Below are positions 2,175-24,807 of a DNA stretch of 24,807 bases, piece by piece (position 1 is the first letter of the stretch; the number at the start of each line of letters is the position of its first letter). The notes under the pieces were generated by a model, which made no database searches, was not told the origin of the DNA, and was given only the letters and a program-made list of their open reading frames with translations. Origin of the DNA: a virus. The position numbers and the translations under genes are program-made. The DNA lies in the IMG/VR virus record IMGVR_UViG_3300046542_000145, positions 1 to 24,807 of that record; one strand, written 5' to 3'.

Positions 2175-3023
2175 ATGAAAAGCATTTCAATCGCAAAAAT
2201 AGTTGCATTCCTTGCCATAACTCATGCGGGACTTGCATATTCAGATGAATATAAAGACTTAGTGTCAGCAAGAGATGAATGCAATAGTTATGGTGATGCC
2301 CTTGTTGAAAAACAGGGTGGCGCGCTGGCGGAAGTCGGTGAATCACCAGTAGATATACGGAACACAGTTAAATATTATTGTATTAAAGGTTTTGAGTCTG
2401 CCTCAACTGCAAAATCACCAAAAGAGATTGAACAGTGGCGAACTGCAAGCCTGAGAAGTTTATCAGGTATAGTTTTTGAAATAGACACATATAAAACACT
2501 GGTTATCAATACCGTATACAAAAAAGCATTAGCCTTCTATAACGCACAGCACTCATCCCCCGCACCTGCACCTGCACCTGCACCTGCACCTGCACCTGCA
2601 CCTGCACCAAATGATGACACCTCACTAAGTAAAACCATCAACAAGTCTGATAAATATGATGGTGACACTCTCATTGTCAATAAGCCCAAGCAATATGTAG
2701 CAGTGGTTAGCTACAATATCGAAGGAGCAGGTTGCGATACTAAAATGCAGGATATGACCATCAGCGAAGTCATTCTCGACAAAGATGAGAGACATGTCGA
2801 ATCCATGCGATTTAAAGAACACCAATCTAAACTGGATGTGAACTTTAGCGGTCTTGAAAATGCCTCACGCTCATGGGTTGATAAAATATTTAAACTAGAT
2901 GACAAAGTTAGTGTAAATATTATGATTTGTGGTTCTGGTGGCTTTGAAAGCATGATTGGAATTGCCAAGCCCGTGACAAAAGACTTCCCTGCTGCTGGAG
3001 TTCAAATCAACGTACCGAACTAG
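2175..3023 (+). CDS. Secreted accessory (moron-type) protein with Ala-Pro repeat, function unknown
   Basis: This 282-aa protein is not one I recognise. It begins with a typical signal peptide: K2 and K8, a hydrophobic core about 9-21, and probable cleavage after A21 or S23, so it should be exported to the periplasm or beyond. A helical domain (24-125) is followed by a Pro-Ala linker (about 129-145) and a beta-rich C-terminal domain (150-282) with cysteines that could pair. A good AAGGA site lies 7 bases before ATG. It is the only plus-strand gene in the tail cluster. Its AT-rich sequence, its own promoter candidate and an adjacent terminator make it a moron, a gene carried for the lysogen rather than for virion assembly. 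Its stop lies 17 bases inside the convergent tape measure gene. It could affect surface properties or superinfection, but nothing shows this directly. Confidence 0.85.
   Translation: MKSISIAKIVAFLAITHAGLAYSDEYKDLVSARDECNSYGDALVEKQGGALAEVGESPVDIRNTVKYYCIKGFESASTAKSPKEIEQWRTASLRSLSGIVFEIDTYKTLVINTVYKKALAFYNAQHSSPAPAPAPAPAPAPAPAPNDDTSLSKTINKSDKYDGDTLIVNKPKQYVAVVSYNIEGAGCDTKMQDMTISEVILDKDERHVESMRFKEHQSKLDVNFSGLENASRSWVDKIFKLDDKVSVNIMICGSGGFESMIGIAKPVTKDFPAAGVQINVPN
2562..2608 (+). repeat. In-frame GCACCT hexanucleotide repeat
   Basis: Seven perfect copies of GCACCT and a partial eighth encode an alternating Ala-Pro rod between the two domains of the secreted accessory protein. Because the unit is six bases, slipped-strand changes would lengthen or shorten the linker without breaking the frame. 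Confidence 0.95.
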
Positions 3024-22276: not shown

Positions 22277-22840
22277 CTATGCTGCTCTTTCGCTGGCGCA
22301 TTCCCCTCTCCCTGCTACTGCGGCACCGTATTCCATCAGCAGGTCACGCTCTACAAAGCTGACATTGCAGACGCCCAGCATGTGCGGATTCCAGATCAGC
22401 AGCATTGAACCTTTGTTATTGCCGTTCACTGGTTTACCGGTATCAGCGCGGACAAACGAAAGTCGGCCGCCAGTGATAAACCGGATTTCACTGCAGGTGC
22501 GTTTGGCATCATTGAACCACCCAACCGATGTATCTGCAGGAACCAGCATCACCGCGCCATGCTCGTCGCTATCTATCTGCGAGGCTTTGCGCACCCAGGG
22601 TGTGATGTCGCTGTATGGTGGGTTTATCCAGATATAACCAGGTGGGAAGTAAATATCCCATTCGGTTTCAAGAGCGTTCTGCTCTTCGGTCAGGTAAAGC
22701 GGGAAAAGGTGGTTCGCGTCGCTGGCGGCGGCATCACCAACAAAGTGAAATTCTTTGTTTAGCGCGGCGGCTATTTCCGGTGGCGTTTGCCATAAATTTC
22801 GGATGTCGATCGGGGTATTACTGCCGGTGTAATCGCTCAT
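22277..22840 (-). CDS. Phage N6-adenine DNA methyltransferase (Dam type)
   Basis: This 187-aa protein matches the phage Dam methyltransferase family. The catalytic motif N73-P74-P75-Y76 is present (WINPPYSD), with a probable S-adenosylmethionine-binding segment FVGDAAASDANHL (about 33-45) and the N-terminal LWQTPPEIAAALN typical of this group. It would methylate adenine, probably in GATC, and could protect phage DNA from restriction. The ATG overlaps the NinB stop (ATGA). Regulation is with the nin block. Sequence specificity cannot be read from the gene. Confidence 0.9.
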   Translation of the reverse strand: MSDYTGSNTPIDIRNLWQTPPEIAAALNKEFHFVGDAAASDANHLFPLYLTEEQNALETEWDIYFPPGYIWINPPYSDITPWVRKASQIDSDEHGAVMLVPADTSVGWFNDAKRTCSEIRFITGGRLSFVRADTGKPVNGNNKGSMLLIWNPHMLGVCNVSFVERDLLMEYGAAVAGRGECASERAA

Positions 22841-23247
22841 GAATAGCGTCCCTCTGTGAATTTAATCCCCTGCCCAACTGCCCAGCACGTGACATATTCG
22901 ATAAGGCTCGCCATGCGGCTGACGCTCATCTCTGCGCTGCTCTCGCGGATGTTTACGAACTCTCCCTCAATGCCCGGCACAATCTCGGCCTGCTGCTTTG
23001 TGGCGACGGCGTGACCGCTGATGAGCAACACCTTCCACTGCTCAGGCTTCAGCTTCTTGCCGCACCATTCAGCCTGGCGAGCAATGTCACCCAGGAGCGC
23101 GTGAAATTTTGCATTCTGGTCAAGGTTTCGTTTGTAGTCGGATATGCGGATTGTTACGGGTCGGTCTTTGTCGGTCAGGAGGGATTGGATGATGTTTATT
23201 GCGTTCTGCCTGATTCGTTCATCGCGAAGCATCAGGGTCTGTTTCAT
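22837..23247 (-). CDS. ninB: NinB-like recombination protein
   Basis: This 136-aa protein resembles lambda NinB (Orf), which binds single-stranded DNA and assists phage recombination in the way of RecFOR. Recognisable parts are the helical N-terminus, ITIRxSDYKRNLDQNAKFHALLGDIA (about 31-56), then CGKKLKPEQWKVLLISGHA and the end YVTCWAVGQGIKF. A GAGG site lies 9 bases before ATG. It heads the nin block and overlaps the methyltransferase by 4 bases. It is somewhat shorter than lambda NinB (146 aa). Confidence 0.9.
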   Translation of the reverse strand: MKQTLMLRDERIRQNAINIIQSLLTDKDRPVTIRISDYKRNLDQNAKFHALLGDIARQAEWCGKKLKPEQWKVLLISGHAVATKQQAEIVPGIEGEFVNIRESSAEMSVSRMASLIEYVTCWAVGQGIKFTEGRYS

Positions 23248-23469: not shown

Positions 23470-23676
23470 TCAGTCTCCTTTAACGGTTATTCCAGCGGCG
23501 CGGATTCCACCCTGTAACCTTCTGTCTTGCTCAATCACCTTTCCTATCAAAGCGCATACAAAGGCGGTTTTTTGATCATTGCTCGATGTTTCATAACGCT
23601 GCATCAGGGTAAACTCAGGTCTATCAGCGCTCTTAAGTGCATTGTGAATTTCATTAGATAATTGGGATATATTCAT
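23470..23676 (-). CDS. Small protein, function unknown
   Basis: This 68-aa helical protein, MNISQLSNEIHNALKSADRP onward, includes AFVCALIGKVIEQDRRLQGG. Its ATG overlaps the ATG of the opposite-strand accessory gene (CATG), so minus-strand transcripts must come through that gene. Its stop nearly touches the next gene, supporting a shared transcript. The ribosome site is weak. The family is unknown. Confidence 0.65.
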   Translation of the reverse strand: MNISQLSNEIHNALKSADRPEFTLMQRYETSSNDQKTAFVCALIGKVIEQDRRLQGGIRAAGITVKGD

Positions 23677-24331
23677 GGGAATGCTCTCTTTTAATATTAC
23701 TTGCCCTCACTGCCTGCGGGAGAATGCTGTTCTGCAGGCTTTCAGTGAACATTTAAGGAATGACACATCTGTGTATGATGTGGCGTTTGCATGCAGGAGT
23801 TGTGAGAAATCTGGTATTGCTGTTGTTAATTCAAATGTAAGGCAAGGCCCGTACGCGCTAGCTAATGCAGGCAGGAACATTGTTATCCCTTCAAATGATG
23901 GAAAGTTTAATCTTTGGAATGTTTACCCAGCCATCGAAGCACATTCAGCTCCGGATAACACCCCACCGAGAGCAGCAGATGCTTTCGTTGAAGCAAAAGA
24001 TAATCTCAAAAGAGGTCGCTTCGATACCTCCGTCATGATTTGCAGAAAGACTATAGATATTGCAACTCGCAACCTCCTTGGTGATGATTCAAAAGATGAA
24101 AAATTGGTTAAACGAATATCAATGCTTCATGGAAAAGGCCTAATCACAGAACAAATGCGTGACTGGGCTCATATTGTGAGAATCGACTCAAATGGGGCAG
24201 TTCACTCTGATGAAGAGTTCACAAAAGAAGAAGCTGAGGAAATGATTGGTTTTACAGAAGTGTTTTTGCTCTATGCCTTTACTCTGCCTGCTATGGTGGC
24301 TGTGAAGCAGGAAGCTCAACAGCAGGATTAA
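23675..24331 (+). CDS. DUF4145-like accessory protein with zinc ribbon
   Basis: This 218-aa protein begins with a zinc ribbon made of CPHC (10-13) and CRSC (40-43), followed by a helical domain (about 100-210). The helical domain contains SVMICRKTIDIATRNLLG, then RIDSNGAVHSDEEF, an R...N...H pattern seen in DUF4145/HEPN-like domains. Such domains occur in restriction and defence proteins, and several HEPN proteins cut RNA. It is the only plus-strand gene in the early block, is AT-rich, and has its own terminator, so it looks like a moron. The ATG at 23675 has a GGGA site; a second ATG at 23681 is possible. Its activity is not shown here. Confidence 0.75.
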   Translation: MGMLSFNITCPHCLRENAVLQAFSEHLRNDTSVYDVAFACRSCEKSGIAVVNSNVRQGPYALANAGRNIVIPSNDGKFNLWNVYPAIEAHSAPDNTPPRAADAFVEAKDNLKRGRFDTSVMICRKTIDIATRNLLGDDSKDEKLVKRISMLHGKGLITEQMRDWAHIVRIDSNGAVHSDEEFTKEEAEEMIGFTEVFLLYAFTLPAMVAVKQEAQQQD

Positions 24332-24341
24332 TCATTGCTTA

Positions 24342-24371
24342 GAGGTCATATTATTGGCCTCACTACTTTTT
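24342..24371 (+). terminator. Intrinsic terminator of the DUF4145-like gene
   Basis: GAGGTCA pairs with TGGCCTC (one G-T pair) around a 6-base loop, followed after ACTAC by five T residues. It lies 11 bases after the gene's stop and works only in the plus direction, because the opposite strand has no T run. Its T run meets the end of the partial gene at the right edge. Confidence 0.75.
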
Positions 24372-24807
24372 AGACTGCTAGTTGTAACTGCATGTTGAAT
24401 CTGTCCCTTTCTTCGCAGTAGTCGAGTGAGCCCGGACTGTTGTGCGATTCGATACGCTCAACCATTAGCGCGGCGCGAGTCTCTTTGCTGGCTGGCGCGT
24501 AGGCACCTTTCCATGCTTTGTCGATGCCGATGTTCCGTGCAACGTTGGTGCTGTCGGCGCTGGCCAGTGGCAGCTTGGTGAAAATAAGCGGGTTAAGCAT
24601 GCGCAGGCCGTGCAGTTTGGAAATGGGTTGCCCGTAATCGTCAGTGACATACCGGATAAGATCTTTCATTCTGGCAACTGCGAGGTTGGGCCGCTTTACG
24701 TCGTAATCCCCACAACTGCCGATTGCCACCCGGGGGAAGTTATTGCACAGACGGATAAAGCGATCGTCACTTTCGTTCATGTGCCAGACCGGTACGCCGA
24801 AGAATTT
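24370..24807 (-). CDS. C-terminal part of a TGT/DpdA-like transglycosylase, cut by the window edge
   Basis: 145 residues are visible, starting beyond the right edge and open there. The segment VPVWHMNESDDRFIRLCNNF, then VAIGSCGDYD, KLHGLRMLNPLIF and ASADSTNVARN, follows in order the last strands of the tRNA-guanine transglycosylase barrel (the AIGG loop, the MGVG strand and the D-C-V/T-R catalytic-Asp region). The Asp in ASADST would be the nucleophile by this alignment. The CxC zinc motif of ordinary TGT is not seen. This fits DpdA-type enzymes, which insert 7-deazaguanines in DNA of some phages. It would sit before the nin genes in the early operon. The assignment is my own alignment by eye. 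A different barrel enzyme is possible. Confidence 0.5.
   Translation of the reverse strand, partial: KFFGVPVWHMNESDDRFIRLCNNFPRVAIGSCGDYDVKRPNLAVARMKDLIRYVTDDYGQPISKLHGLRMLNPLIFTKLPLASADSTNVARNIGIDKAWKGAYAPASKETRAALMVERIESHNSPGSLDYCEERDRFNMQLQLAV

Follow-up and report, generated by a model that had tools for sequence, protein, structure and literature searches.

Does the reading frame that runs off the end of this viral contig encode an enzyme exchanging guanine in phage DNA for a 7-deazaguanine base, and where would such a base come from? We consider it likely (probability of roughly 0.8) that the fragment represents the C-terminal end of a small guanine transglycosylase directed at DNA and belonging to the phage DpdA family, which would act as follows. 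The enzyme would recognise a site in phage DNA, break the glycosidic bond of a guanine via the active-site aspartate Asp191, with Asp47 as its partner, and insert preQ0 or a derivative such as ADG, a 7-deazaguanine base drawn from the queuosine pathway of the host. The DNA would then carry dPreQ0/dADG, at a low level or at specific sites, alongside the m6A introduced by Dam. Family, fold and conserved residues were established on relatives; DNA as the substrate, the base inserted and a protective effect are what we infer.

Family assignment of the truncated frame

The window, i.e., the whole stretch of DNA analysed, is the entire record of 24,807 bp, and the N-terminal ~106 residues of the dpdA product are therefore unreadable here. 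At the position initially annotated, a minus-strand frame of 145 residues runs off the contig end:

24370-24807, minus strand: dpdA-like gene, 5'-truncated by the contig end, 145 codons (PHROG 887, E = 1.4e-49)

The fragment represents residues 107-251, the last three-fifths, of a protein of ~251 residues, and is 93% identical to the full-length relative P0002 (L006), whose numbering is used throughout. Comparison with the closest relatives gave pS values of 0.74-0.83 and pN values of 0.05-0.07, with a dN/dS of ~0.02 where dS was unsaturated and computable. Almost all changes are thus silent, which marks a functional protein rather than a chance frame.

Profile searches assigned both the fragment and a full-length relative (E = 3.2e-99) to PHROG 887, named 'queuine tRNA-ribosyltransferase'. 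The Pfam TGT profile yielded zero matches over the cut-off, which places the window protein far from canonical TGT. Pfam and NCBIfam searches with the fragment returned nothing useful, hhalign found no match between the dpdA family profile and bacterial TGT, and sequence and profile searches of PDB sequences with the family produced chance hits only.

By means of tblastn, relatives were identified in 104 phage records and 440 IMG/VR stretches. They occur widely among phages and prophages of enterobacteria, and most are full length (~251 residues). The genes of BTP1, SPN3UB, SfI and Pantoea phage AH07 show 69-94% full-length identity to P0002, which also matches the DpdA of MED16 (38% identity) and a protein of phage 7-11 (34%). 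Used as a single query, the DpdA of Arthrobacter phage Sonali matches both CAjan DpdA (4e-9) and the BTP1 protein (7e-5). In the tree, the window, BTP1, L006, L017 and L170 group together (98/95) within a clade of 13 rows (100/100). In the same 33-row group (100/99), MED16 and 7-11 make up a second clade; the CAjan group falls outside. Together with the barrel model and the conserved residues of full-length relatives described below, the PHROG assignment bears out the TGT/DpdA identity proposed initially. Membership in the DpdA family is well supported; base exchange by this clade is a prediction. The window dpdA is a typical representative of a family already described; its context is the part of interest.

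In L065 (4539-5438), the C-terminal half of dpdA is fused in frame to an unrelated N-terminal part and the N-terminal aspartates are gone; this copy is a recombination product. L074 (4554-5438) carries an internal stop codon in dpdA. GenBank OR850331.1, a 1,719 bp 'Staphylococcus phage' record with a dpdA 93% identical to an enterobacterial one, is probably mislabelled or contaminated.

Fold, conserved residues and competing substrates

The L006 protein was modelled by AlphaFold2 with an alignment of 64 diverse relatives (pLDDT 90.5, pTM 0.88), single-sequence prediction being unusable (pLDDT 39). The model is an eight-stranded (beta/alpha)8 barrel of which the window fragment covers strands 5 to 8, in agreement with the earlier by-eye alignment to the last strands of the TGT/DpdA barrel. 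The plain Foldseek ranking was led by generic TIM barrels such as tryptophan synthase alpha, with TGT at rank 32. In a second look with VIA-align, the top row was the complex of Cap10 and its deazaguanylated partner (9ntn; Z 15.3, rmsd 4.0 over 230), followed by archaeosine TGT (1iq8; Z 15.1, rmsd 7.3 over 233), Zymomonas TGT (4htb; Z 14.9, rmsd 3.0 over 214) and the DNA preQ0 insertase DpdA (7ui4; Z 14.5, rmsd 3.1 over 212). These rows are tied, and structure therefore does not separate the TGT-type sub-families. Of the HMM and structure searches that had been proposed, PHROG 887 and the structural rows thus pointed to TGT/DpdA families, and the searches of Pfam TGT, by hhalign and of PDB sequences did not.

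Eleven residues are invariant in the window family and the DpdA proteins of CAjan, JenP2 and Vid5: D47, G49, A50, D87, P112, H115, G136, H172, P186, D191 and S192. Three of them bear directly on the putative active site and are readable in the window:

24781-24783, minus strand: His115 codon, motif PVWH, end of strand 5; invariant in 64 relatives and the CAjan alignment
24610-24612, minus strand: His172 codon, motif LHGLRML, end of strand 7; invariant in the CAjan alignment and at least 90% conserved in 64 relatives
24553-24555, minus strand: Asp191 codon, motif ASADSTN, end of barrel strand 8; invariant in 64 relatives and the CAjan DpdA alignment; predicted nucleophile

D47 and D87 lie beyond the contig end. 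The N-terminal aspartate motif (DNGAF/DSGAF), invariant in the 64 relatives, is likewise off the contig end in the window copy. The active site of such barrels lies at the strand ends, and in the L006 model this is where D47 (strand 3), H115 (strand 5), H172 (strand 7) and D191 (strand 8) are located. By analogy with established knowledge of TGT, D191 is predicted to be the nucleophile and D47 its partner. The TGT fold and the catalytic-type aspartates, on which the initial annotation had made its proposal depend, are both present in full-length relatives, with Asp191 in the window itself.

The PHROG name and the shared fold could also describe a tRNA-guanine transglycosylase of phages, which would act on the tRNA of host or phage and thereby tune translation. 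Canonical TGT carries a zinc site, CxCxxC...H, after the nucleophile. This site is absent after Asp191: P0002 has one Cys and one His there, and no Cys is conserved among the 64 relatives. Besides the missing Pfam TGT match, canonical tgt was already present in 16/16 tested bacterial genomes with a dpdA-like gene, and the frequent DNA methyltransferase neighbours, including one fused to a DpdA, also speak against tRNA, so that we regard this reading as improbable.

Slightly less probable still is a Cap10-like enzyme that binds 7-deazaguanine or attaches it to protein instead of DNA, for example in counter-defence. Such protein modification is known in type IV CBASS (PMC11996544), and 9ntn was the top structural row, albeit tied with TGT and DpdA; the genomic context, in contrast, points toward DNA, and a QueC-like partner was not found over the cut-off in 50 related phage records (see below). 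A decaying or inactive dpdA remnant carried by recombination, as the truncation at the contig end, L065 and L074 might suggest, is very improbable given the low dN/dS, the intactness of every readable catalytic-type residue and the mostly full-length relatives.

Supply of the base and neighbouring genes

In type IV CBASS, Cap10 is encoded together with a nucleotidyltransferase and with Cap9, a QueC-like partner that the system needs. QueC was over the cut-off in 0/50 related phage records, some of which may be fragments, versus a strong match in 37 of 41 bacterial genomes with a dpdA-like gene, so preQ0 is likely to come from the host. The host is thus the most likely source, as had been suggested from the outset. 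Among distant dpdA relatives, the gene adjoins QueC/QueD/QueE/FolE or QueC/FolE. A YhhQ-family (Vut_1) gene was found in 10 of 240 loci, always directly adjacent to dpdA and on the same strand; all ten match Vut_1, nine of them over the curated cut-off. Under random positions, this adjacency would have a probability of ~1e-10, a value to be read with the relatedness of the loci and the seeding of the search from neighbours in mind. A Vut_1/YhhQ-family gene occurred in 1/50 related phage records. Members of Vut_1 such as YhhQ carry preQ0 (PMC6884629). Of the four genomes that lack a strong QueC, two have a YhhQ-family gene, versus 1/37 with QueC (p = 0.02; numbers are small and some assemblies are drafts), and the distribution of YhhQ and QueC is consistent with preQ0 being supplied by the host or salvaged. 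The genetic link to 7-deazaguanine supply is seen in relatives (preQ0 genes, YhhQ-family genes, host QueC), with none visible in the window itself, and no gene for conversion of preQ0 to ADG was identified in the analysis.

On the minus strand of the window, dpdA is followed by two small ORFs, ninB, dam, YbcO, RusA and a Q-like antiterminator. The relevant neighbours are:

23675-24331, plus strand: DUF4145/HEPN-like gene (Pfam DUF4145, E = 1.2e-9; PHROG 1305, E = 1.4e-47), between dpdA and ninB-dam
22837-23247, minus strand: NinB recombination mediator (Pfam NinB, E = 2.1e-53), overlapping the dam start
22277-22840, minus strand: Dam-type N6-adenine DNA methyltransferase (Pfam PF05869, E = 2e-50; PHROG 111), 1.5 kb from dpdA

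Dam had been placed with dpdA in one early operon. Its proximity holds, but the plus-strand gene splits dpdA from ninB-dam, and a single operon is therefore unsupported for the window phage. The intervening gene looks like an independent accessory gene; its protein has N-terminal CxxC pairs, and it is followed by a terminator-like hairpin, although such hairpins are not more frequent there than expected by chance. The notion of a temperate lambdoid phage is consistent with the nin/Q/lysis order and with close relatives in bacterial chromosomes, and the phage is presumably temperate, although the window yielded neither an integrase nor a repressor. Elsewhere in the window (2175-3023, plus strand), the strand opposite to the tail genes encodes a protein of 282 residues that begins like a signal peptide, contains an AP repeat and has no PHROG match.

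In L017, whose dpdA is 94% identical, a YhhQ-family gene, dpdA, a NinB-like gene and dam lie on one strand, with the YhhQ-family stop overlapping the dpdA start. We counted DNA methyltransferases of the Dam, MT-A70, D12, C5 and N4/N6 families, assigned from motifs and from their resemblance to seed proteins; they were found by direct phmmer, an iterative D12 profile having drifted. In a set reduced at 90% identity, they occupied 18 of 255 positions within two genes of dpdA versus 14 of 1019 farther away (odds ratio 5.5, p = 4.8e-6), an enrichment that may partly reflect the placement of accessory genes in lambdoid phages. PF05869 Dam was over the cut-off in 11/50 related phage records. Moreover, an uninterrupted frame of 572 residues in Rosenbergiella metrosideri (L235:9968-11683) joins a DpdA-like half, 65% identical to the DpdA of phage SW9, to a D12-class N6-adenine methyltransferase; it is the single instance of such a fusion found. 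These features of the neighbourhood make DNA a likelier target than tRNA or protein, although they are no proof of it. ParB-like genes overlap the beginning of dpdA in Pantoea phage AH07 (L002:6361-7683) and Arthrobacter phage Sonali (L091:3312-3905); as possible helpers they were kept as a lead, such genes being scattered over many positions.

A tentative and rather doubtful extension is that the DpdA clade of temperate phages belongs to a mobile DNA-modification cassette of importer, base-swapping enzyme and adenine or cytosine methyltransferase, in which insertion and methylation would be functionally coupled, with a bifunctional protein such as that of L235 as the extreme case.

Characterised relatives and implications

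The closest measured parallels are MED16 and Salmonella phage 7-11, which share a short stand-alone DpdA, the lack of preQ0 genes and an enterobacterial host with the window phage; MED16 also has an N6-adenine methyltransferase. Their modified DNA has been measured, and their DpdA proteins are only 34-38% identical and form a separate supported clade (PMC6884629, PMC8306585). Phage 7-11 DNA contains 50 dADG per million nucleotides (PMC6884629), and MED16 DNA contains 354 dADG and 633 m6dA (PMC8306585), i.e., a precedent for the two modification layers in one phage that were initially envisaged. These levels are very low (0.02-0.13% of G), and most of the enzymes tried still cleaved MED16 DNA, which has ~0.13% dADG (PMC8306585). 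In the literature, we found no measured modified DNA for any member of the window's own dpdA clade.

The DpdA proteins of the Queuovirinae (CAjan, JenP2) have D47, D87, H115, H172 and D191 in common with the window family, with Sonali DpdA as a bridge. However, those of CAjan, 9g and JenP2 are only 16-18% identical, have ~306-317 residues, and are accompanied by preQ0 or G+ pathway genes and heavy modification; in CAjan, dpdA is essential for dPreQ0 (PMC6884629). Bacterial DpdA (7ui4) and canonical TGT share the (beta/alpha)8 barrel (Z 14-15) but are much longer, and canonical TGT has the zinc site that the window family lacks. The 'queuine tRNA-ribosyltransferase' genes of BTP1, SPN3UB, SfI and Pantoea phage AH07 belong to the same PHROG, whereas their neighbours differ from those in the window; no function for them was found in the literature, and the BTP1 literature examined does not mention the gene.

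If the clade is active, 7-deazaguanine modification of DNA would extend beyond the few lytic phages that encode a pathway themselves, and would be a widespread, light-touch trait among temperate phages and prophages of enterobacteria, fed by the host. The recurrent company of DNA methyltransferases and preQ0 importers, as well as the DpdA-methyltransferase fusion, would be worth following. It would then be testable why many phages keep a lone DpdA despite rare measured marks, and whether base exchange and methylation act together.
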